Made by a program: the position numbers and the translations under genes
Part shown: in pieces, positions 29,561-57,098 of the stretch
How positions within the stretch are numbered: position 1 is the stretch's first letter
Layout of the letters: each line of letters starts with the position of its first letter
Source of the DNA: Bacteroidaceae bacterium
GTDB lineage: Bacteria; Bacteroidota; Bacteroidia; Bacteroidales; Bacteroidaceae
NCBI GenBank assembly: GCA_017442855.1
Contig: JAFSPM010000024.1
Span: 62,001-126,000, forward strand
DNA length: 64,000 nt
Direction: 5' to 3'
Notes under the pieces: model-generated
The model's input: the letters and a program-made list of their open reading frames with translations, nothing else
Told to the model about the DNA's origin: nothing
Databases searched by the model: none

Positions 29561-29589
29561 TTACTGTTAAATTAAACTAGTTCAATAAT

Positions 29590-29608
29590 CACTTTTCGGA
29601 GCAGCGAG
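29590..29608 (+). repeat. Dispersed repeat motif in the RND operon spacer
   Basis: CACTTTTCGGAGCAGCGAG lies in the 113-bp spacer between adaptor and pump genes. It recurs with one change on the minus strand at 58277-58295, inside a methyltransferase gene. Similar TCGCGA-containing sequence follows both copies. Confidence 0.6.
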
Positions 29609-29673
29609 GGCAGAGCTAAGTTGACATTAGCTATGCCGAATCGCGATGAAATTGGAGCGAATCCCAATTCTCT

Positions 29674-45625: not shown

Positions 45626-47014
45626 TTAATAGCCTGGGTTTTGAACCATTGCAGAGTTCAGGTCGATCTCACGCTGTGGGATAGGCATGATGGCACGCAT
45701 GTTGTCAGCCATAATCTCATCACCTAAAGAATTGATAACTGCCTTGCCATTGCGCCAGTAAGCGAATGCAATCTGGTTCTCAGCGAACAGTTCCTTGGTA
45801 TATTCAAAGATGATGTCATCAATAGTAACTGAAGCTACATCAGTATAACCTTCAACACGGTTCTTCTCAATCTCGTTGATGAATGAAGCTGCAGCAGCAC
45901 CACCAGAGAGATAGAATGAAGCTTCGGCAGCAATCAGATACACTTCTGAGAGACGGATGATCTTAGGATTGTTCACATAGATAGAACCTCCACGACCAGG
46001 ATACTTAGCTGGATAATAACCAGGAGCATCTTTATGAGAAGTCTGATCTTTGATTAATTTTGAACGAACATCCTCTGGATGAGTTGAAAGATACTTATAC
46101 AGTTTGCCATTAACATTGAATGCACATTCTGCATATCCACTTGCATCTGTGTAATAGCCTGGAGAATAACGCTGAGCATTATAGTTATCGGTAGTCAGGA
46201 ATTCAAAGATTGACTCAGAAGTTCCCTCAGCTCCCCAAACGCTTACATAGTTAGAAGGAGTGTAGAGGTCATAAACACCGCTGTTGATAACTGCGTTAGC
46301 GTCTGCCAAGGCGTTAGCATACTCACCCATATACAAGTAAGCACGTGCACGAAGTGCAGTAGCTGCCCACTTATCCATATAACCTACACCGTTATTATCA
46401 TCCAACATACCGATAGCTTGTGTGAAGTCAGCGATAATCTGGTTATAAGTTTCAGCCAAAGTAGCACGAGTTGGCTTGTACTCAGGATCATACACCTCAG
46501 TTGCCAAAGGAATACCTGAATTTGCTTCAGAAGTATTTGCTACAGTAGAAGGGATGTGTGCAAACATACGAGCCAGGTCGAAATGCAGTAAAGCACGCCA
46601 AGCATACAGCTGACCCTGCAAGTTCTTCACTCTGGCGTCGTTCAACTGAGAAGAAGTCTCCAGAGCCTTATTAACATTTGCAATAGCCTGATAGTGTACA
46701 CGATAAGGGTTGGTAGCCAGTTCGTCATACTTAGTCAAGTTGTAACTTGAGATAGGCACACTCTGGTTGTTGCTCTTGATTACAGCAAACTCATTGGTCA
46801 ACAGGTCTGCATAAAGTGTAAACTCAGCGCCATAAGTACCTCTTTTACCTGATACAACATAGCCGATACCATTAACGGTATTCTGCAAGTCTTCAAAAGA
46901 AGTTATCGCACCATCTACAGGCAGAGCGGTTGAAGGTTCCTTATCCAGGAAACCACTGCATGAAGCTAGTGCTAAACTGGATACAATACCTAAAGTTAAA
47001 TATACTTTTTTCAT
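45626..47014 (-). CDS. SusD/RagB-family nutrient-binding lipoprotein (left pair)
   Basis: Surface lipoprotein of 462 residues (lipobox LALASC, Cys19). CSGFLDKEPSTALPVDGAITSFEDLQNTVNG is the typical SusD start, and GQLYAWRALLHFDLARMF and RLSEVYLIAAEASFYLSGG are TPR-like helices of the family. The C-terminus has MPIPQREIDLNSAMVQNPGY, as usual. It forms the lid over the SusC barrel encoded 19 nt upstream. Ligand unknown; no glycosidase or other PUL enzyme is nearby, so the substrate may be a peptide or small glycan. Confidence 0.94.
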   Translation of the reverse strand: MKKVYLTLGIVSSLALASCSGFLDKEPSTALPVDGAITSFEDLQNTVNGIGYVVSGKRGTYGAEFTLYADLLTNEFAVIKSNNQSVPISSYNLTKYDELATNPYRVHYQAIANVNKALETSSQLNDARVKNLQGQLYAWRALLHFDLARMFAHIPSTVANTSEANSGIPLATEVYDPEYKPTRATLAETYNQIIADFTQAIGMLDDNNGVGYMDKWAATALRARAYLYMGEYANALADANAVINSGVYDLYTPSNYVSVWGAEGTSESIFEFLTTDNYNAQRYSPGYYTDASGYAECAFNVNGKLYKYLSTHPEDVRSKLIKDQTSHKDAPGYYPAKYPGRGGSIYVNNPKIIRLSEVYLIAAEASFYLSGGAAAASFINEIEKNRVEGYTDVASVTIDDIIFEYTKELFAENQIAFAYWRNGKAVINSLGDEIMADNMRAIMPIPQREIDLNSAMVQNPGY

Positions 47015-47033: not shown

Positions 47034-50000
47034 TTATAATTCGATGTTCAAACCAAATACAAACGAACGGGTAGGAGGAGTATCTGTCTGACGATATCCA
47101 TTCACATCCACGTCTGGATCAGCATTCTTGGTTGCATTGTAAATCAAGAACGGATTAGTTGCACGGAAGTAAACACGAAGGTTATTGATAACGTTCTTCT
47201 TCACAGGGATTCTGTAACCGAAGGTAATATCACGCATGCGGATATTGTCGGTAGAACGGATGGTACGAGAAGAGAAACGGTCAGAACGATATGGGTTACC
47301 ATAGATAGGACGAGGATACTTAGCACCTGTGTTAGTAGGAGTCCAATAGTTTCCAGCCACCTCTTCTACTACATTGAATGAACCTACACGTACACCATCA
47401 GAGAACTGCAGGAAGTAACCTGGATAGTCGAACATGCTTGCACCACTCTGGAATGAAATCATGAATGACAGGTCGAAGTTCTTCCAAGTGAAGCGGTTGG
47501 TGATACCACCGAGGAAATCTGGAATAGCCTTACCTACGATGGTGCTACCAGCTTGTGTATAGTAGTTGGTTACGCCCTTAGAGTGGTCTTCTGGGTCAAT
47601 CCAGAATTCACCCAAACCGGTTTCCTTGTTTACACCGATATACTCTGGTAAATAGAAGGTATGCATAGACTCGCCTTCACGCAAGATATACATGCTACCG
47701 TCACCGTACTGAACATCCTCACCATTAGGCAACTCTTTGATCTTATTGCTCTGGAAGGTGATGTTGAAGTCGGTTGACCAAGTGAAGTTCTTAGAAACGA
47801 TGTTCTGTGAACTGATAGAAACCTCAAGACCCTTGTTGGTCAACTTACCGAGGTTAGATGTCATGCTATCGAAACCAGTTACCCAAGAGATAGGAGTTGC
47901 GAACAACATATCCTTGGTCAGCTTGCTATAGTATTCAACGGTCAAACCAACACGGCCGAACAGGTTCCAATCCAAACCGATGTTGAAGTTCTGTGACTTC
48001 TCCCAACCCAAGTTGGTGTTAGAAAGCTGTGACCAGTAATAAGCTGAGTTAGTACCATAACCACCAGTGGTTGAGTACAGACCCATGTATGAGTAGTTAC
48101 CAGTTGGCAGGTTACCGTTAGTACCGTATGATACACGCAGCTTCAGGTCGTTGAACCAAGGATTATCCTTCAGGAATTCCTCGCCACTGATACGCCATGC
48201 ACCAGATACTGACCAGAAGTTTGACCAGCGGTTGCCTGATGCCAGACGAGAAGAACCGTCACGACGGAATGAAGCTGACAGGTAGTACTTGTTATCATAG
48301 TTGTAGTTAGCGTTAGCCAACCAAGACAAGATAGAGTTCTCGCTAAAAGAGCTACCAGTTCCGTAAGTCTGACCGTTAGACAGTTCAGGCAACTTATAGG
48401 TTACGAACTGCTTAGCAGAAGCGGTCATGTAATCATACTGACGCTTTTCAGCCTCAAAACCAGCCAATACCTGCAAGTTGTGCTTGCCGAAGTTGTTAGC
48501 ATAGTTCAAAGTGGTTGAAGAGGTCATGGTACGGTTGGTGTAGTCCCAACGCTGTGACAGACCAGTGAGTGATTCACCGTTCACAGAAGCAGGTGCCCAG
48601 AACTCATGTACCTTATTATTAATAAAGTCATAGCCGAATACTGAACGAGCTGTAAAGTTGAAAGGCAACTTAATCTCAACGTCAGCATTGGTCATACTAC
48701 GCATGGTCTTGGTCTTCACAAACTCTGAATATTGATTCAGTTCCTTGCTCAGCATCAGGTTAGGATTTGCTACCTTGCCGAAAGCTGTGTCAGGATTGTA
48801 CTCGCCATTTGGTAATTTAACAGCAGCTGTTGGGTCACTTGAGAACATGATTGACAGAGGAGCAGTAGTACCAAAACCCTGTTCCTGATCACCCTGGTCA
48901 CGGAAACCTTCGGTACTTGTGTAAGAAATCATCTGCTTAACACCTACCTTCAACCAGTTGGTTACCTGATGGTCTAAATTGATACGACCACTATAACGCT
49001 CAAATTCACTGTTCTTCACAGTACCGTTCACCTTGTTATAACCAAAGCTTGCATAGAACTGGGTACGGTCAGAACCACCGCTTACACCCACCTGATGGTT
49101 GGTAGTGAAGCCAGTACGATAAACCTCCTTGCTCCAGTCGGTGTAAGTGTTGGCAGAAGGATCGTGGAACCAGCCGCCTTCATCCCATGCTGTATCAACT
49201 TCCTGTTGAGCAGCTGCTTCTGCATCAGCAGGATCCATCTTAGCACGGATTTCAAAGTAGCCAGCCAAAGCATCTTTATAGTATTGTTTCAACTGCTTAG
49301 AGTTCATCATCTTCAATGCCTTCTTTACAGCAACATCACTCCAACCGAACTCTGCGTCATAAGTAACCTTAGTACGGCCGATAGCACCCTTCTTAGTGGT
49401 GATGATGATGACACCGTTAGCAGCACGAGAACCATACAGAGAAGATGCAGCAGCATCCTTCAATACAGTCATGCTCTCAATATCGTCAGGGTTGATGGTT
49501 GACAGCACTGACTGTGAACGTACGCCTGAGCTAATCATGCTATCATTAGTGATAGGCACACCATCGACAACATACAGAGGCTGGGTAGAACCGTTAACAG
49601 AACCAATACCACGGATAGTAATACGCTGGTCAGAACCTGGGTCACCAGTAGATGCACCTACACGCACACCAGCTACTTTACCTTCGAATGATTTCACCAG
49701 TGACTGACGCTGTGCTGACATGTCTGTATCACGCATCACAGATGCAGAACCGGTAAATGATGCCTTTGTGGTTGTACCGTAAGCTACGACCATCACTTCG
49801 TCGAGGACTTCGGCATCATTCTTCATAACAATCTGAATATCACCTGTTGTGATGGGAACTAACTGAGTTCTCATACCAACGAAAGATACCTGCAAGTTCT
49901 TAGCAGATGCAGGTACACTGGAAATGGTGAACTTACCTTCTATATCAGTAATGGTACCTCTTGCAGTACCTTCCACCAAGATAGAAGCACCGATAACAGG

Positions 50001-50108
50001 CTCGTTGTTTTCATCAACAACTGTACCTCTTACGGTAAGATTCTGAGCCATTGCCAATGTGAAGCTTGCAAATAAGCAAGCCAAAAGCACTAATACTCTT
50101 TGTTTCAT
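47034..50108 (-). CDS. SusC/RagA-family TonB-dependent transporter (left pair)
   Basis: Outer-membrane transporter of 1024 residues. Signal peptide 1-22 (cleaved after AMA), a carboxypeptidase-like domain with GTVVDENNEPVIGASILVEG (about 28-105), a TonB-box-like DEVMVVAYGT, the plug with IRGIGSVNGSTQPLYVVDGV and VLKDAAASSLYGSRAANGV, and the barrel to the C-terminal FVFGLNIEL. I use the ATG at 50108; a GTG at 50114 would add MF. The first 66 nt are identical, but for one base, to those of the divergent susC at 52384, forming an inverted repeat. No consensus promoter faces this gene. Confidence 0.94.
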   Translation of the reverse strand: MKQRVLVLLACLFASFTLAMAQNLTVRGTVVDENNEPVIGASILVEGTARGTITDIEGKFTISSVPASAKNLQVSFVGMRTQLVPITTGDIQIVMKNDAEVLDEVMVVAYGTTTKASFTGSASVMRDTDMSAQRQSLVKSFEGKVAGVRVGASTGDPGSDQRITIRGIGSVNGSTQPLYVVDGVPITNDSMISSGVRSQSVLSTINPDDIESMTVLKDAAASSLYGSRAANGVIIITTKKGAIGRTKVTYDAEFGWSDVAVKKALKMMNSKQLKQYYKDALAGYFEIRAKMDPADAEAAAQQEVDTAWDEGGWFHDPSANTYTDWSKEVYRTGFTTNHQVGVSGGSDRTQFYASFGYNKVNGTVKNSEFERYSGRINLDHQVTNWLKVGVKQMISYTSTEGFRDQGDQEQGFGTTAPLSIMFSSDPTAAVKLPNGEYNPDTAFGKVANPNLMLSKELNQYSEFVKTKTMRSMTNADVEIKLPFNFTARSVFGYDFINNKVHEFWAPASVNGESLTGLSQRWDYTNRTMTSSTTLNYANNFGKHNLQVLAGFEAEKRQYDYMTASAKQFVTYKLPELSNGQTYGTGSSFSENSILSWLANANYNYDNKYYLSASFRRDGSSRLASGNRWSNFWSVSGAWRISGEEFLKDNPWFNDLKLRVSYGTNGNLPTGNYSYMGLYSTTGGYGTNSAYYWSQLSNTNLGWEKSQNFNIGLDWNLFGRVGLTVEYYSKLTKDMLFATPISWVTGFDSMTSNLGKLTNKGLEVSISSQNIVSKNFTWSTDFNITFQSNKIKELPNGEDVQYGDGSMYILREGESMHTFYLPEYIGVNKETGLGEFWIDPEDHSKGVTNYYTQAGSTIVGKAIPDFLGGITNRFTWKNFDLSFMISFQSGASMFDYPGYFLQFSDGVRVGSFNVVEEVAGNYWTPTNTGAKYPRPIYGNPYRSDRFSSRTIRSTDNIRMRDITFGYRIPVKKNVINNLRVYFRATNPFLIYNATKNADPDVDVNGYRQTDTPPTRSFVFGLNIEL

Positions 50109-50111
50109 AAA
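50042..50111. repeat. Left inverted repeat (IR-L) of predicted susC inversion switch
   Basis: 70 bp spanning the start and signal-peptide codons of the left susC. It matches 52381-52450 in opposite orientation with one mismatch (CAA versus GAA in codon 3). Similarity drops at both edges: base -4 upstream, and right after the signal-peptide CAG A downstream. Confidence 0.9.
50064..50081. other. Candidate recombination core in IR-L
   Basis: Reading with susC, GCTTGC-TTATTT-GCAAGC: 6-bp inverted arms around a 6-bp asymmetric spacer, the usual layout of tyrosine-recombinase crossover sites. The same site is at 52411-52428 in the opposite direction. Prediction only. Confidence 0.5.
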
Positions 50112-50154
50112 CACATTATTAAAGTTAATACAATCTCAATTATCTTTGTAAATA

Positions 50155-50206
50155 ATTTTTACCCCATGTAGATTCTATTTTCTTGCAGTAATTCGTGATT
50201 ATTACA
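50155..50206 (-). promoter_or_regulatory. Conserved leader element of left susC
   Basis: Read with the gene, a dyad of form TGNANTAAT-CACGA-ATTANTNCA (50184-50206), 18 nt, then GGGGTAAAAA. The right susC leader has the same dyad (21/23 identical), the same 18-nt spacing and TGGGTAAAAA. The dyad ends 75 nt before this ATG. Confidence 0.7.
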
Positions 50207-50213
50207 AGGCGAC

Positions 50214-50290
50214 TATTCCTCTCGGTTTTATCAAATTCAGGTCATTTATTCCTCTCGGTTTTATCAATTTTAATACATTTATTCCTTTAT
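50214..50290. repeat. Direct repeats with 33-bp period in left susC leader
   Basis: TATTCCTCTCGGTTTTATCA starts at 50214 and 50247, and a shorter copy TATTCCTTTA at 50280. The period of exactly 33 bp (about three helical turns) suggests protein-binding sites on one DNA face. They lie only on the left side of the segment. Confidence 0.75.
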
Positions 50291-50370
50291 TTGCTATATC
50301 CAATTTATATAAACAAGCTATCAGTTAATAGTGTATAAGGTTTTCTGGCAACGTATATAGAATTAAATAG

Positions 50371-50402
50371 AAGGGGAGATGTCCTCATGGATCTCTCCCC
50401 TT
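50371..50402. terminator. Hairpin downstream of the recombinase gene
   Basis: AAGGGGAGAT and ATCTCTCCCCTT pair around GTCCTCATGG. It lies 31 bp after the recombinase stop. On the plus strand a T-run follows (TTTTTT). It would insulate the left susC from recombinase transcription. Confidence 0.75.
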
Positions 50403-50432
50403 TTTTATGTATAAGGAGGAATCTAGTTAAAA

Positions 50433-51818
50433 TTAAGGATTAGTGTTAACGATGTGAAAACAACGATCATCCATTTTCAAAATAGTTTCAACTATTTCTT
50501 TTTCATTTTTGAGTAACAGTGCGTTATATGCTTTGGCCTTTTCAAGAGAGATTCTTCCAATATATTTATGAGTGATAGATTTGTTTAAGCTATGTCCCAT
50601 GCTTTCGCTGATATAGTCGGTTGGCACTTCGGCATGACTTAATACTGTGGCGAAAGAATGACGTGCCCATGTTTCACTTAGGGAGACATCCAATCCCATC
50701 ATCTCCTTTGCCACCATTTTTAGATATTGGTTGTTTATGCTATGCCATTTGGCGATTTCATGACGTTGCTCAGCTTCCGTTCTTGCTCCTTGTAGAATAA
50801 AAGGAAAGACAAGTCCATTCTTTTCATATGGGACACCTATTTCCCTAATAACAGTCCTCAACTCAGGAATGATAGGTACTACAATTCCGTTCGGACTAAC
50901 TGTTCTGTCACGTGTCTTAGTACGATAGAATAAAAAGGCTTCTCCCTTGTTCAGCAAATAATAGTCGTCATATCTTAATCGTGCCAGATCTACAAAGTTC
51001 ATCCCATTGCCAAGATACATACCTAAGAAAATGCCTACAACCTTCTTGGCGATGGATTTCCGTTTACTTGTCCACGTATTGGGATAATTGTCTTTCACGA
51101 ACCTATCATATAGGATTCGCCATTGGTCAACTGTCAGATTCATGTGATTTCGGCTTTTTCCTACAGGCAATAACACCTTGTCTTTAGACAAATTACTGAA
51201 CATGTTTTGTGACATCTGCATCAAACCTTCTTTAATACAGAGGTTGACAATAATCCTTAAAGTTTGGAGCCTCATACAGATGGTTGTGTTGCTGTATCCG
51301 TGTTCTTCCATTCTCTTTTTCCAATCGTTGACGGTTTTTGCCGTGATTAGAAAGCCGTCTTCAGCCCTATATCCACTGAAGCTCCTGAAATCTTTCAGTG
51401 CATTCAGGTAAATGACTTTGGTTCCAGGCTTTTTACCAGAAGCATAGTCCTCCCAAATAGCAAACAGGTTCTTCCAGACCATGCCTTTACCGTACAGAAC
51501 GGCTCTAATGGCATCAAGAGATAATGGTTGGATGCATGCTATGTCGTTGACTCTTTTAGCATAATTATCCAACAACTCGCTCCAATGTGTTCTCATGGCA
51601 GCCTTTTTGCTGATTCTGCCCTTCTGGCCTTTGGCCACTTCAATTCTTCTTACTTCTTCAAATTCCGCTGGAGTCAGCAATGCGCCTAAATGCCAGTAAA
51701 GCACCCTGCGGTTAAGCGTAAATCGCACACACAGTTTATATTTACCTGCGTAGCATTTTCGCTTGTCCAACCCAATGGAAATGTAGCAATCACCTACTAC
51801 TTGTCTAAGATTTCCCAT
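50433..51818 (-). CDS. Tyrosine recombinase (integrase), probable susC invertase
   Basis: Site-specific recombinase of 461 residues: an N-terminal arm/SAM-like region (about 1-215) and a C-terminal catalytic domain. The box II region is ETWARHSFAT (Arg386, His387), then SMGHSLN with His409 and the nucleophile Tyr419 in HKYIGR; TKTRDR is the beta-hairpin Lys region. The box I Arg position reads GNGMNFVDL, with Asn where many relatives have Arg. It sits between two divergent susC genes whose 5' ends form a 70-bp inverted repeat, so it probably inverts that segment. It has no other phage or transposon genes beside it. Confidence 0.92.
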   Translation of the reverse strand: MGNLRQVVGDCYISIGLDKRKCYAGKYKLCVRFTLNRRVLYWHLGALLTPAEFEEVRRIEVAKGQKGRISKKAAMRTHWSELLDNYAKRVNDIACIQPLSLDAIRAVLYGKGMVWKNLFAIWEDYASGKKPGTKVIYLNALKDFRSFSGYRAEDGFLITAKTVNDWKKRMEEHGYSNTTICMRLQTLRIIVNLCIKEGLMQMSQNMFSNLSKDKVLLPVGKSRNHMNLTVDQWRILYDRFVKDNYPNTWTSKRKSIAKKVVGIFLGMYLGNGMNFVDLARLRYDDYYLLNKGEAFLFYRTKTRDRTVSPNGIVVPIIPELRTVIREIGVPYEKNGLVFPFILQGARTEAEQRHEIAKWHSINNQYLKMVAKEMMGLDVSLSETWARHSFATVLSHAEVPTDYISESMGHSLNKSITHKYIGRISLEKAKAYNALLLKNEKEIVETILKMDDRCFHIVNTNP

Positions 51819-51861
51819 TTTGATTAATTTTAAATGATTAAATGAATACTATTTCGGGGAA

Positions 51862-51883
51862 ACAACATGAAAACAAATGTTGT
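51862..51883. promoter_or_regulatory. Small dyad in the recombinase leader
   Basis: ACAACAT and ATGTTGT are 7-bp arms around GAAAACAA, 44-65 nt before the recombinase start. It could be an operator or an RNA hairpin. The rest of 51819-52080 is AT-rich with no gene seen. Confidence 0.4.
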
Positions 51884-52084
51884 AATAAAGTCTTATTAAG
51901 CCATATTTCTTTGTTTCCTGATGATATACCCTTCCTTTCAATTATGCATAATAATATATATTTGAAGTTCTCTCATCCTACACCTTATTTATATATAAAG
52001 AGATGAAATATGAAGGAGATAGGGACTTAATTGTAACAATACGAATGAATTCTTGACATTTTTTTAAATTTATGCGTAAAAAAA

Positions 52085-52115
52085 TTTGTATTTATTAATA
52101 TTATAACTAACTTTG
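52085..52115 (+). promoter_or_regulatory. Promoter facing the right susC
   Basis: TTTG (52085-52088), 19 nt, TAACTTTG (52108-52115): a full consensus match. The start near 52121 gives a leader of about 260 nt. No equivalent exists before the left susC. Confidence 0.8.
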
Positions 52116-52173
52116 CCCCCGATTTGCGTTCAATAGGTTCTTATAAGGATTACAGAAAAATTCGCTGTTTAGA

Positions 52174-52224
52174 TGTAGTAATCACGAATTATTGCAGATG
52201 ATTCAGAGAATATTTGGGTAAAAA
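52174..52224 (+). promoter_or_regulatory. Conserved leader element of right susC
   Basis: A TGNANTAAT-CACGA-ATTANTNCA dyad (52174-52196), 18 nt, then TGGGTAAAAA. It matches the left susC leader in sequence and spacing. Here it lies downstream of the predicted start of transcription, so it may act in RNA or as a roadblock operator. Confidence 0.7.
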
Positions 52225-52256
52225 GAATTAAAAACTTTTAAGGCGAATATTGAATT

Positions 52257-52277
52257 GCACTTCACAGCTGAATGTGC
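52257..52277 (+). promoter_or_regulatory. Stem-loop in the right susC leader
   Basis: GCACTTCA and TGAA(T)GTGC pair around CAGC with one bulged T. It is about 105 nt before the susC start, without a T-run, so a leader structure rather than a terminator. Confidence 0.5.
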
Positions 52278-52380
52278 TTAACGCTTTACAAGCAGAATAC
52301 ACAGAAGCTGGTGGTGCAAGTGTTTTTTACCATTTCGCAACGATGTAAAATTTTTTGATAGTTATTTATAAATTATTTGT

Positions 52381-52450
52381 TTTATGAAAGAAAGAGTATT
52401 AGTGCTTTTGGCTTGCTTATTTGCAAGCTTCACATTGGCAATGGCTCAGA
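52381..52450. repeat. Right inverted repeat (IR-R) of predicted susC inversion switch
   Basis: 70 bp from base -3 to the end of the signal-peptide codons of the right susC; 69/70 identical to IR-L in opposite orientation. The candidate core GCTTGC-TTATTT-GCAAGC is at 52411-52428. Confidence 0.9.
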
Positions 52451-55400
52451 CACGTAGAGTGACTGGTAACGTTGTTGATGAGGATGGAAGCCCTATTATT
52501 GGTGCTTCCGTATTGGTAAAAGGAACTAACACAGGTACTATCACTGACGTGGAAGGTAACTTCGTTTTGGCTGCCGTTCCTACTTCAGCAAACACATTGG
52601 TAGTGTCTTTCGTTGGTTATTCTACTCAAGAAGTCGCTATCTCAACTAACATGACTGTCATCTTGGCTGCCGACAACGAAATGTTGGACGAGGTCATCGT
52701 GGTTGGTTATGGTACTCAGAGAAAGAAAGATGTGACCAGCTCCATCTCTCGCGTGGGCGGTGATGAAATTGCTAATTTGGCAACCTCTTCATTTGATACC
52801 CAGTTGGCTGGTCGTGCAGCTGGTGTACAGGTGCTCACCCCAAGTGGTGTCCTGGGCTCTACCCCAACCTACCGCATCCGTGGTGTTGCCACGGTGAACT
52901 CAGGCACACAGCCTCTGATTGTTGTGGACGGTATGCCTATTGTTTCTGGTAACATTGCTGAGGGATCTGCTTCTTATAACGCAATGACCGATATCAACCC
53001 AAGCGATATCGAGTCAGTGGAAATCCTGAAGGACGGTGCCGCAACCGCTATCTACGGTTCTCGCGCTGCCAACGGTGTTGTGCTGATTACTACCAAGAAG
53101 GGTAAGGTTGGTCAGACCAAGGTTACATACGACGGTATGTTTACTATCGCCTCTCCATTCAAGACTCACGAACTGCTGAATGCAAGTGAATTTGTGACCA
53201 TCATGGATGAAATTTACGGCAACTGGGGTATGGAGAGTCCTGCTAAGAACACCGGTGTTGAAACCGACTGGATGAAGGAAGTGTTCAGAACCGGTTTCCA
53301 GCACTCTCATACTATCAACGCTAGCGGTGGTACTGACAAGAGCCAGTATTACTTCTCATTAGGTTACACCAACCAGGAAGGTATCATCCGCGCTAACGAC
53401 CTTCGCCGTTACAACGTAAAGGGTAACCTGACCCAGGAAGTGAACAAGTGGGTGAAGATCGGTTTGGATATCCAGGCTAACAAATCTGAAATCTCCGGTT
53501 GGAGTACTAACGCTTCTAACTCATTGTCAGGTGCCGGCTACGGTGCTATCGCCATGCTGCCTAACGTACCTGTTTACGACGCTAACGATCCTACAGGTTA
53601 CAACATCGACGCTCAGAACCGCAAGGCTTTGGGTCGTGGTGGTAACGATACTTATATTGACAACTCAATTCCTAACATCGTTTGGGTATTGGATCAGAAC
53701 AAGAACACCACAGAGAACCTGCACATCATGGCCAATGCATTCGTGGATGTTACCCTGCCTATCAAAGGTCTGACTTACCGTATGCAGGGCAGTGAGAACA
53801 TCTCAAAGGTGATGTCTCGTACTTATTGGAATCCAGCATCTGGTGACGGTTACAGCTACGGTGGTATCCTGGACGAGAGCTACGGTAACAACCGCGACTG
53901 GAACTGGCAGAACATCTTGAACTATAACGCTACTTTTGGCAAACACAACATTTCGGCTACTGCCGTTATGGAATATACCAAGAGCCACTACGACTATACC
54001 GAGGGTGAGGCTGAAGAGCTGTCTGATACTTATTTCACCAAGCATATCATCTCTAACACCTACGGTCAGCAGTATGTTTACGGTTCTGAGACCGAGTATG
54101 GTTTGGCTTCTTACCTGTTGCGTGCTAACTATAACTACAATAGCACTTACTACATAGGCGCTTCTATCCGTCGTGATGGTTTGTCAAAGCTGCACAAGGA
54201 TAACCGTTGGGGTACTTTCTGGGGCGTTTCCGGCGCTTACCGTATCTCTAACGAGAAGTTCTATGTGAACTCTGCATTGAAGAAGGTGGTGAACGATCTG
54301 CGTATCCGTGCTTCTTACGCTACACTGGGTAACTCTAACATCGGTAGCGGTAACTTCCCATACCTGGGTACTTACGGTGCCGGCAAGTATGGTGCTCAGA
54401 ACTCTATCGGTTGGACCCAGATGGGTAATGGTAATCTGAAGTGGGAGACCACTGAGACCTTCGATATCGGTCTGGACGGTGCTTTGTTCGACGGTCGCCT
54501 GAACTTCGAGTTCGCTTACTGGCAGAAGAATTCTAAGGACTTGGTGATGAACGTGCCTACTCCTCCATCATTGGGTATCCCTTATAACCGCTATGCTGAC
54601 AATATCGGTAAGATCAAGAACTCAGGTATCGAGTTTACTCTGGGTGCTTACATCTTCCAGAACAGAGACTTCACTTGGAAGGCTGACCTGAACTTCTCAA
54701 CTCTGAAGAACAAGGTAACTTCACTGTACGGTGGCAATGACATCATCAATACCTATACTATCATTCGTGAGGGTGAGTCATACAACGCTATCTACGGTTA
54801 CGACTACTACGGTGTGAACAAGACCAACGGTAACCCAATCTGGAGAAAGGCTGACGGTTCACTGGTACAGCTGGATACCTTCGGTGACTACGACTACCAT
54901 GTGTATGATCCTGCTAACCCAAGCGACGTTTCTCAGGATTCTTCTCTGAACACAAGCGACAAGAAAGTGCTGGGTAACTCAATTCCTACTTGGTTTGGTG
55001 GTTTGACCAATACTTTCACTTGGAAGAACTTCGACGCAAGCATCTTCATCCGCTTCTCTGGTGGTAACAAGATCATGAACGTTGACCGTCAGGAGATGTT
55101 GCTGAACCTCGGTTTCGAGAACCAGGGTAAGGAAGTCCTCGGCCGTTGGCAGAGTGAGGCTAATCCTGGTGATGGCATGACTCCAAAGATTGGTTACAAG
55201 GATGGTGACTACCTGTTCAATACAGACGCAGCTGACTCTCACTTCGTTGAGAATGGTGCTTACTTGAAGCTCGCTACCGTTACTGTGGGTTATACTTTCC
55301 CAAAGAAGTGGTTGGCTCCTCTGGGTGTAACCAAGGCTCGCGTTTATCTGCAGGGTCAGAACCTGCTGACTTGGACTGGCTTCTCTGGCTTGGATCCTGA

Positions 55401-55485
55401 AACTTTCGCAACGGATACCAGCTTCGAATATGCTTCCATGCCTGCTCAGCGTTCATTCACCTTCGGTGTAAACGTAACATTCTAA
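52384..55485 (+). CDS. SusC/RagA-family TonB-dependent transporter (right pair)
   Basis: Outer-membrane transporter of 1033 residues with the same plan as the left one: signal peptide 1-22, carboxypeptidase-like domain (GNVVDEDGSPIIGASVLVKG), TonB-box-like DEVIVVGYGTQ, plug with YRIRGVATVNSGTQPLIVVD and ILKDGAATAIYGSRAANGVV, and barrel ending SFTFGVNVTF. After the shared signal peptide it is clearly different from the left SusC, so the two should take up different ligands. A perfect promoter (52085-52115) faces it, so this copy should be ON in the sequenced state. Confidence 0.95.
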   Translation: MKERVLVLLACLFASFTLAMAQTRRVTGNVVDEDGSPIIGASVLVKGTNTGTITDVEGNFVLAAVPTSANTLVVSFVGYSTQEVAISTNMTVILAADNEMLDEVIVVGYGTQRKKDVTSSISRVGGDEIANLATSSFDTQLAGRAAGVQVLTPSGVLGSTPTYRIRGVATVNSGTQPLIVVDGMPIVSGNIAEGSASYNAMTDINPSDIESVEILKDGAATAIYGSRAANGVVLITTKKGKVGQTKVTYDGMFTIASPFKTHELLNASEFVTIMDEIYGNWGMESPAKNTGVETDWMKEVFRTGFQHSHTINASGGTDKSQYYFSLGYTNQEGIIRANDLRRYNVKGNLTQEVNKWVKIGLDIQANKSEISGWSTNASNSLSGAGYGAIAMLPNVPVYDANDPTGYNIDAQNRKALGRGGNDTYIDNSIPNIVWVLDQNKNTTENLHIMANAFVDVTLPIKGLTYRMQGSENISKVMSRTYWNPASGDGYSYGGILDESYGNNRDWNWQNILNYNATFGKHNISATAVMEYTKSHYDYTEGEAEELSDTYFTKHIISNTYGQQYVYGSETEYGLASYLLRANYNYNSTYYIGASIRRDGLSKLHKDNRWGTFWGVSGAYRISNEKFYVNSALKKVVNDLRIRASYATLGNSNIGSGNFPYLGTYGAGKYGAQNSIGWTQMGNGNLKWETTETFDIGLDGALFDGRLNFEFAYWQKNSKDLVMNVPTPPSLGIPYNRYADNIGKIKNSGIEFTLGAYIFQNRDFTWKADLNFSTLKNKVTSLYGGNDIINTYTIIREGESYNAIYGYDYYGVNKTNGNPIWRKADGSLVQLDTFGDYDYHVYDPANPSDVSQDSSLNTSDKKVLGNSIPTWFGGLTNTFTWKNFDASIFIRFSGGNKIMNVDRQEMLLNLGFENQGKEVLGRWQSEANPGDGMTPKIGYKDGDYLFNTDAADSHFVENGAYLKLATVTVGYTFPKKWLAPLGVTKARVYLQGQNLLTWTGFSGLDPETFATDTSFEYASMPAQRSFTFGVNVTF

Positions 55486-55508: not shown

Positions 55509-57098
55509 ATGATAAACAATACAATCATTAAGAATGTGCGCAGAGTGGCTATGGTGGCTGCTTTAGCGCCTGCGATTGCACTTACGTCCTGTATAAAGGA
55601 CACATTGGATCTGGAACCTGCATATAGCCTTTCCGAGAACAACGGCTTTGATACTGCTGATCACGTGGCTTTATCAGTAGCAGGTGCCTATGACAGATGT
55701 CAGAATAGCCAGTATAACGGTAGTTATAGCCGTGGTTACCCATTTGGTGCAGCAAGCATCCTGCAGGGCGAGATGCGTGGTGAGGACTTCATGATGAGCC
55801 AGCAGTTCTTCCTGATTACTTTCCAAGGAACTTACAATGCTTCTTCTTTGAACAACTTGACCATGTGGGAGGCTTCTTTCGAGGCGCTGAACCGTGTGAA
55901 TATTGTTATGGAGGGTGCTAAGCAGGCAGGTGCTGAGGGTGTTATCGACGCTGCCACCGCTAACCAGTATGAGGGTGAGATGCTTTTCCTGCGCGCGTTG
56001 ATCTATCATAATTTGCTGACTCACTTCTCTGCACCTTATAACCTGACTGGTTATAACAACGACTATGGTTTGCCTCTCTATACTCACTCTATCACTACGA
56101 AAGATGAGATTGACGAAAGCTTGACCATTGGCCGCTCTACTGTAGCTCAGACATACGCTCAGATTATCAGTGACCTGAACCAGGCTGAGAGCCAGTTGCC
56201 AGAGACTAACGCTGACAACAACATCACCCGTGCTACCAAGTGGGCTGCTATCGCACTGAAGACCCGCGTTTACCTGCACATGCGTGACTGGAACAACGTT
56301 GTTACTGAGGCTAAGAAGTTTGACAATGCTCCTTATGCATTGGAGGCTGACCCAGCTACTCCGTTCTTGAGCTTCTCAAGCAACAAGGAGTCTATCTTCT
56401 CAATCGAGTGTACAGCTGATGACAACGCATCTGTAAACGGTAGTATGTCTTCTATGTTCAACCCATACCAGCGTTACATGTGCCCAATGTCTCCAGTGCT
56501 CTACAACAGCGCATTGTGGTTACCAGATGACAAGCGTCGTACTGAACTGGTTGAGATTTACGCTACCGATAACGTTCCTTACTGCTATAAGTATCAGAGT
56601 TCAGACCGTAGCGAGTATGCTCCAATGCTGCGTCTGGCTGAGGTTTATCTGAACTATGCTGAGGCTGCTTTGCGCAGTGGCGATCAGGCAACAGCACTGA
56701 CTTACCTGAACAAGGTTCGTGACCGTTCTTTGGCTGATCCTGCTACCCAGAGCTATAAGGCTGCTGACTTCGCAAGTGCCGCTGACATGCTGAACGCTAT
56801 CCTGTGGGAGAAGCGCTTTGAGACCTTCGGCGAGGGTTTGCGTTGGGGTGACATCCATCGTTTGACTGTTGACGATATGGCTCCTACAGGTGGCATACCT
56901 GCAAAGATCCAGTACAAGAAGGTGAACGGTGCTAACGCTGCTGATGTATTCGTAATCGGTAAGGCTATCGACGAGGCTTGGTACTTGGTAGGTGCATATC
57001 CTTATACCGACCGCCGCTTCTTGTGGCCTATCCCAACTAATGACTTGACTCGCAACCCAACTTTGGCTGCTCAGCAGAATGTTGGTTGGAGCAACTAA
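55509..57098 (+). CDS. SusD/RagB-family nutrient-binding lipoprotein (right pair)
   Basis: Surface lipoprotein of 529 residues (lipobox ALTSC, Cys28), the partner of the SusC encoded 23 nt upstream. Typical features are CIKDTLDLEPAYSLSENNGF at the start, EGEMLFLRALIYHNLLTHF, the LRLAEVYLNYAEAALRSGDQ helix, ILWEKRFETFGEGLRWGDIHR, and the end LWPIPTNDLTRNPTLAAQQN. It is longer than the left SusD and not closely similar. The operon ends at a strong terminator. Confidence 0.95.
   Translation: MINNTIIKNVRRVAMVAALAPAIALTSCIKDTLDLEPAYSLSENNGFDTADHVALSVAGAYDRCQNSQYNGSYSRGYPFGAASILQGEMRGEDFMMSQQFFLITFQGTYNASSLNNLTMWEASFEALNRVNIVMEGAKQAGAEGVIDAATANQYEGEMLFLRALIYHNLLTHFSAPYNLTGYNNDYGLPLYTHSITTKDEIDESLTIGRSTVAQTYAQIISDLNQAESQLPETNADNNITRATKWAAIALKTRVYLHMRDWNNVVTEAKKFDNAPYALEADPATPFLSFSSNKESIFSIECTADDNASVNGSMSSMFNPYQRYMCPMSPVLYNSALWLPDDKRRTELVEIYATDNVPYCYKYQSSDRSEYAPMLRLAEVYLNYAEAALRSGDQATALTYLNKVRDRSLADPATQSYKAADFASAADMLNAILWEKRFETFGEGLRWGDIHRLTVDDMAPTGGIPAKIQYKKVNGANAADVFVIGKAIDEAWYLVGAYPYTDRRFLWPIPTNDLTRNPTLAAQQNVGWSN

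Follow-up and report, generated by a model that had tools for sequence, protein, structure and literature searches.

The window analysed here, a stretch of 64,000 nucleotides (nt) from a Bacteroidaceae bacterium (contig JAFSPM010000024.1 of assembly GCA_017442855.1), contains two susC/susD gene pairs, with susC as the first gene of each, that diverge from either side of the gene of a 461-amino-acid (aa) tyrosine recombinase. This locus probably combines two layers of variation, namely a recombinase-mediated promoter flip at a pair of short inner inverted repeats and a slow exchange of susC/susD pairs through a junction formed by the DNA at the start of the susC genes, hereafter the leader. The features of the locus, with their positions and strand in the window, are as follows.

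45626-47014, minus strand: left susD, an open reading frame (ORF) with SusD-like_3 and SusD_RagB profiles over cut-off
47034-50108, minus strand: left susC, an ORF with 857 bits for TIGR04056
50042-50111, minus strand: left arm of the outer (leader) repeat, spanning the start codon and the codons of the signal peptide, 69/70 identical to the right arm
50157-50163, minus strand: left GGTAAAA motif, 21 nt outside the left inner site, possibly an accessory site
50184-50206, minus strand: left inner site of 23 base pairs (bp), proposed recombination site
50371-50402, minus strand: hairpin 3' of the recombinase gene, on the left-susC side (-20.3 kcal/mol, z -3.45)
50433-51818, minus strand: tyrosine recombinase of 461 aa, from ORF and profiles
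52085-52115, plus strand: Bacteroides-type promoter TTTG-N19-TAACTTTG, a motif match facing the right susC
52174-52196, plus strand: right inner site of 23 bp, proposed recombination site
52217-52223, plus strand: right GGTAAAA motif, 21 nt outside the right inner site, with the same putative function as the left one
52381-52450, plus strand: right arm of the outer (leader) repeat, 69/70
52384-55485, plus strand: right susC, an ORF with 885 bits for TIGR04056, which the promoter faces at present
55509-57098, plus strand: right susD, an ORF with SusD_RagB and SusD-like_3 profiles

Both susC products exceed the whole-protein cut-off of 368 of the SusC/RagA profile TIGR04056.

Nested inverted repeats and the enclosed promoter

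The leader is present as inverted copies at 50042-50111 and 52381-52450 that are identical at 69 of 70 positions, in agreement with the first-pass annotation of this DNA, which had described a 70-bp inverted repeat with one mismatch at the susC starts, and the repeat can be extended to 101 nt at 89% identity. The sole mismatch alters codon 3 (Gln/Glu), and the identity of every synonymous site claimed at that time was recovered, as leader codons for the same residue are identical in 21 of 21 cases when the codon usage of the four sus genes predicts 10.65 (P ~1.1e-7). Beyond the leader the two proteins diverge, as had also been stated, with 367 of 948 aligned residues common to both SusC (38.7%) and the same codon used at 209 of these 367. 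Leader DNA has two matches at E <= 0.001 in its own genome (2.76 megabases, 80% complete), both in this locus, and no third copy was found in this 80% complete assembly at that threshold.

A second inverted repeat, overlooked in the first-pass annotation, is nested in the first one, with 23-bp arms at 50184-50206 and 52174-52196 that agree at 21 of 23 positions (two mismatches). Among inverted repeats between the two start codons it ranks first, with none of 15 shuffles as good, and a search allowing up to three mismatches gave two matches in the window and no match in 100 shuffles. A degenerate pattern of the inner site occurs exactly at two places in its own genome, both in this locus, and at one further place with three mismatches on contig C8. 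Both sites have the form of a tyrosine-recombinase core, with 7-bp arms G-Y-A-R-T-A-A around a 7-bp asymmetric centre TCACGAA, and the GGTAAAA motif lies 21 nt beyond the outer side not only of both sites in the window but also of the single copy in L036, the closest relative locus. Two matches of the pattern in viral_contigs were taken for chance.

The inner repeat encloses the recombinase gene together with one match (52085-52115) to a strict promoter motif, defined as TTTG-N18-22-TAnnTTTG, which has six matches in the whole window as compared to 0.87 expected; none of them lies upstream of the left susC in the present orientation. The earlier claim of a single promoter between the repeats hence holds for the strict motif, and the arrangement of inverted repeats around a promoter is that of an inverton. 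On sequence grounds, the inner 23-bp repeats are likely to be better candidate flip sites than the leader repeat.

The first-pass annotation had proposed instead that the recombinase inverts the DNA via the 70-bp leader repeat, swapping the leaders or 5' regions of the susC genes in frame, which now appears unlikely. Such an inversion would be in keeping with the near identity of the two leaders, with the lack of another copy in the genome at E <= 0.001 and with a dyad, GCTTGC-N6-GCAAGC, present in the leader. It is disfavoured by the compact repeat of recombinase-site form that is nested inside and holds the promoter, and by the leader having no copy of the inner site, as nothing close to it was found there (the best has 10 mismatches in 21 positions). 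Since, in addition, the loci of genomes G027 and G214 described below lack a leader pair, the leader repeat was rejected as first choice for the site of the enzyme. A binary susC/susD switch with recombinase and promoter inside the inverting segment, as originally suggested, is still the best reading, with its likely enzymatic sites placed at the inner repeats and not at the leader.

The recombinase and its relatives

The recombinase scores 27.5 bits with the Phage_int_SAM_5 profile (cut-off 22.3) and 25.6 bits (E 1.2e-5) with Phage_integrase, just under the cut-off of 27.1, and has no NCBIfam match at 1e-5 and no PDB match at 0.1. Lys300, Arg385, His408 and Tyr418 are invariant across 27 aligned recombinases. 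Close relatives were found in one of 11 pattern-matched stretches in genome_contigs (L036), in two of 399 family genomes and, at 1e-70, in four of 158 genus genomes, two of these being the own and the L036 genome, with none in viral_contigs. More distant relatives (L004-L021, ~30-38% identity) show no divergent susC pair around the recombinase, as judged by ORFs, and therefore say little on its function.

The recombinase frame is open and under purifying selection when compared with L036, with a ratio of nonsynonymous to synonymous substitution rates (dN/dS) of 0.196 and 377 of 452 residues identical. This bears on the possibility that the locus is frozen, the repeats being relics of a past inversion and the right operon alone being expressed now. 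The single orientation seen and the lack of a recombinase in the corresponding segment of G219, G027, G214 and G006 would be accounted for in this manner, but a relic is hard to reconcile with the selection acting on the recombinase, with a left susC that is intact (dN/dS 0.057) and with the agreement of the inner sites at 21 of 23 positions, and we regard it as very improbable.

Conservation of the leader across species

When the leader was used as a query against the 158 genus genomes, 14 had a match at E <= 0.001, eight of them long and strong (the own genome included) and six of just 23-24 bases. In three of the eight (G000, G223 and G114) a recombinase gene lies beside the leader, and in the other five none was found between or beside the divergent starts. 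The occurrence of the same signal-peptide DNA in susC genes without recombinases, named in the first-pass annotation as an observation that would speak against its proposal, is thus encountered in part.

Nine leaders from six species (G000, G223, G219, G006, G214 and G027; the diverged second G223 copy was left out) differ at 0 to 4 of 66 bases, while fronting four types of SusC body, designated L, R, 3 and 4, which have ~35-39% of residues in common where compared. Between the window and G219, all 66 of 66 bases of the left leaders coincide while the bodies behind them have 80% DNA identity, and the right leaders agree at 63 of 66 bases with bodies at 84%. Within genomes, the two leaders of a pair differ at one (window), two (G219), two (G006) and one (G114) positions. 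As differences between species are as small, within-genome leader identity is not higher than that between species, except for one base common to both G006 leaders and absent from the other seven. Hence, the argument from leader identity to recombination stands in part: the leader has the appearance of a junction formed by recombination, but its identity alone, given a G219 leader equal to the left one of the window in front of bodies at 80%, is no proof of recent recombination within this genome. The equally high identity between species also counts against inversion at the leader. Furthermore, types R, 3 and 4 are alike over the next 44 codons (77-86% DNA identity) before falling to ~50%, so that the edge of identity is not equally sharp in every pair.

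Alternatively, the leaders could be alike because the signal-peptide region is under selection as DNA or RNA, for instance to preserve an mRNA hairpin or the target of a small RNA, in which case no recombination would take place at the leader. The conservation above the neighbourhood, as in the left leaders of the window and G219, would be expected from such selection, and so would the retention of the 6-bp stem of the dyad, all six pairs of which are kept in 13 of 14 leaders, in three of them via one G-T wobble pair, although few stem sites vary at all. Leader DNA is also shared among other Bacteroides-group susC genes, and other susC genes of the genus likewise share a different leader DNA. 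However, the 5' region outside the leader is not equally conserved, and the exchange of 5' region in L036 (see below) and the non-matching bodies behind matching leaders require recombination nearby, leaving this explanation with a low probability. The dyad itself lies in the signal-peptide codons (e.g. 52411-52428) and might form an mRNA hairpin or a protein-binding site.

Recurrence of the architecture with different sites

In G219 the same two susC types as in the window stand 335 bp apart with no recombinase between them, in G006 a left-type susC is opposite the third type, and in G027 and G214 a fourth-type susC with this leader is opposite a fifth type with another leader. A second leader variant is carried by G114 and G057. 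At one G114 locus, a left-type susC with a single stop in its frame and a fourth-type susC are separated by the gene of a 392-aa recombinase, which is of a different kind. The neighbours of the chromosomal slot are frdB and a THUMP-like gene, and the order is frdB-L-R in the window, frdB-R-L in G219 and frdB-5-4 in G027; the divergent susC genes of G214 occupy this slot as well, and in G006 the THUMP side alone is visible, beside type 3. Relative to these two boundary genes, the susC/susD pairs of the G219 locus (L071) are on swapped sides as compared to the window.

The inner repeats of G219 and G027, which are exact over 17 and 16 bp, respectively, share one motif, unlike that of the window, and each encloses a single strict promoter, with 0 of 100 shuffles as good for each. 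In G214, exact 16-bp arms of the G027 type lie on either side of 7 Ns, and of the 207-bp segment enclosed in G027 only 43 bases were matched elsewhere in G214; the gap fits an assembler meeting both orientations, which is suggestive of inversion at that locus. In G114 (L073), inner arms of 93 nt adjoin the leaders and enclose a promoter and the recombinase, with none of 15 shuffles as good. These inner repeats show that the same architecture recurs with different sites, and G027 and G214, where only one of the two susC genes has this leader, that the layout is independent of the leader repeat; its retention there is a further point against leader inversion.

SusC/SusD inversions of Bacteroides fragilis are reportedly controlled by Tsr0667, as Nakayama-Imaohji is said to have described in 2009. 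The Tsr0667 site consensus is AGTYYYN4GDACT. This consensus is found at the inner end of one arm of the G114 locus L073. Separately, at another G114 locus (L074, 6025-6196), a 17-bp inverted repeat, with 0 of 100 shuffles as good, lies upstream of a susC that is not divergent from its neighbour; it fits the same consensus, has no strict promoter between its arms and might be a substrate for inversion by the 392-aa recombinase, which is encoded on another contig.

Exchange of a 5' region in the closest relative locus

L036 is a 6829-bp contig of a Bacteroidaceae metagenome-assembled genome that ends at the recombinase start and carries one inner site with the left susC and susD. Its left susC body is preceded by a 5' region resembling that of the right susC of the window (225 of 264 aligned bases, 17 gap positions); alignment with the 5' region of the left susC of the window gave 140 of 163 bases and 107 gap positions. 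Outside the leader, the similarity to the right 5' region reaches z 19; among 36 pairs of 5' regions compared, four were above z 3.5, two of which (z 4.0 and 4.3) were weak, A+T-rich and not used. The piece between inner site and leader thus appears, from these alignments, to have switched partner between the lineages of the window and L036. An inner flip alone is insufficient for this partner change, and a crossover or conversion at the leader is sufficient. The combination of left body and right 5' region is also obtainable by an odd number of leader crossovers plus an inner flip, which is a point in favour of inversion through the leader.

Proposed mechanism and points that weigh against it

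In the two-layered scheme that we favour, the resident tyrosine recombinase would invert the segment of ~2 kilobases (kb) between the inner 23-bp sites. As this segment holds the recombinase and the only promoter, one susC/susD operon would be transcribed at a time, which is the right one now, and a flip would leave both susC coding sequences untouched while turning the left susC on and the right one off. The promoter, measured from motif end to start codon, would then lie 157 nt before the left susC as compared to 269 nt before the right susC at present. The recombinase gene would point toward the silent susC in either orientation with the hairpin between them, and this hairpin (50371-50402) is possibly a terminator shielding the silent susC. 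On a slower scale, the leader would serve as a shared junction through which unrelated susC bodies together with their susD are exchanged between loci and species by homologous recombination, the start remaining constant. A broader generalization is offered more tentatively, with somewhat less than even weight: a two-tier locus in which the promoter switch acts in the short term and the near-constant in-frame leader is a socket for unrelated SusC/SusD pairs, with recombinase sites differing by species.

Several observations weigh against this scheme. Only one orientation has been seen. The promoter is a motif match, a scan for sigma-70-type promoters gave no excess (7 vs 9.5 by chance), a simple terminator scan found none despite the hairpin, and the window control for the best-inverted-repeat test comprised only 15 shuffles. 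Among the related loci, G006 has a weak inner repeat of 13 bp, equalled in 3 of 100 shuffles, and G057 has a perfect 34-bp repeat upstream of susC (L077, 6577-6850) with the strict promoter outside. The 5' region of L036 is explicable by old shared ancestry, and both G114 genes share one 5' region; moreover, since L036 ends at the recombinase start, its other site would lie beyond the contig, and the leader query found no second copy in the L036 genome. Finally, the recombinase lacks two usual catalytic residues: Asn replaces Arg-I, and Thr takes the position of the His in HxxR. Asn is likewise found at Arg-I in 25 of the 27 aligned recombinases, and the HxxR His is replaced by Thr, Tyr or the like in most. 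For IntDOT-type enzymes, two alternative places of this arginine have been reported (PMC8138268), so that Asn at Arg-I alone is no sign of an inactive enzyme.

If the scheme is true, the locus is a compact and portable two-state importer switch with enzyme, promoter and sites within ~2 kb, and it provides a testable account of the turnover of the SusC/SusD repertoire, in which variable bodies are exchanged behind a constant start at one chromosomal slot.

Comparison with known inversion systems

SusC/SusD inversion as such is established. In B. fragilis, according to the available parts of the reports, the single enzyme Tsr0667 acts on three SusC/SusD clusters and nine other regions in a shufflon-type manner (PMC4747536, PMC11852207). 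As far as these descriptions extend, that system and the window are alike in employing a tyrosine recombinase and an inversion (predicted for the window) that changes which SusC/SusD pair is expressed; they are unlike in that the enzyme of the window lies inside the segment and its exact sites occur at this locus only in the own genome. Neither inner site of the window carries the Tsr0667 consensus, and its sole match in the window (54257-54271) lies inside the right susC and is at chance level. Nor was a shufflon of three or more sites found, the own genome (80% complete) having two sites and one 3-mismatch place on another contig.

In B. intestinalis and B. thetaiotaomicron, clusters of TonB-dependent transporter and SusD genes undergo inversion by integrases dedicated to them, as described in the accessible portion of PMC8375218. 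They resemble the window in the transporter/SusD genes, in inversion (again predicted for the window) and in the dedicated recombinase gene adjoining. In that portion whole gene clusters invert, whereas in the window a segment of promoter and recombinase would do so between two complete operons, and the nested repeats of the window do not figure in it.

Capsule-locus invertons of Bacteroidales likewise have short inverted repeats around one promoter, but they turn one operon on and off, whereas the flip in the window would choose between two. Gene-altering programmed inversions, reportedly described by Milman in 2023, are said to involve repeats within the coding sequences of divergent genes with a recombinase between them; coding-sequence repeats are also present in the window, in the form of the leader, yet there they are probably not the sites of the enzyme. 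A recombinase between divergent susC genes is also found in L029 and L030 (G085, G081) and in L115 (G001). L029 and L030 have an inverted repeat of 105-106 nt and a recombinase 28-30% identical to that of the window, and in all three loci the open frame on one side lacks the signal-peptide part, which resembles a silent cassette, whereas both genes of the window are whole.

No precedent for the leader junction or the nested layout was recognised in the literature searched, which lay mostly outside subscription journals. What seems to be new is a self-contained segment of promoter and recombinase nested in a leader repeat that seemingly serves exchange. Inversions proximal to susC are reported to vary in disease (PMC10939037), and in gut Bacteroidales phase-variable SusC proteins bear on the choice of nutrients, on susceptibility to phages and on recognition by the immune system (PMC10939037, PMC8375218).

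Additional observations

Two near-duplicate 4134-bp contigs of G223 (L105 and L106, on C37 and C158) end just past the THUMP-like gene, which adjoins an antiporter-like gene there and not susC/susD, perhaps reflecting mixed strains. Just inside the left inner site of the window, at 50214-50279, lies a tandem pair of 33-nt copies (TATTCCTCTCGGTTTTATCAA..., 85%), which is absent from L036 and from the other loci of other genomes. Elsewhere in the window, ~77 bp at 29588-29664 are 83% similar to the end of L036 that follows its left susD and may represent a dispersed repeat.

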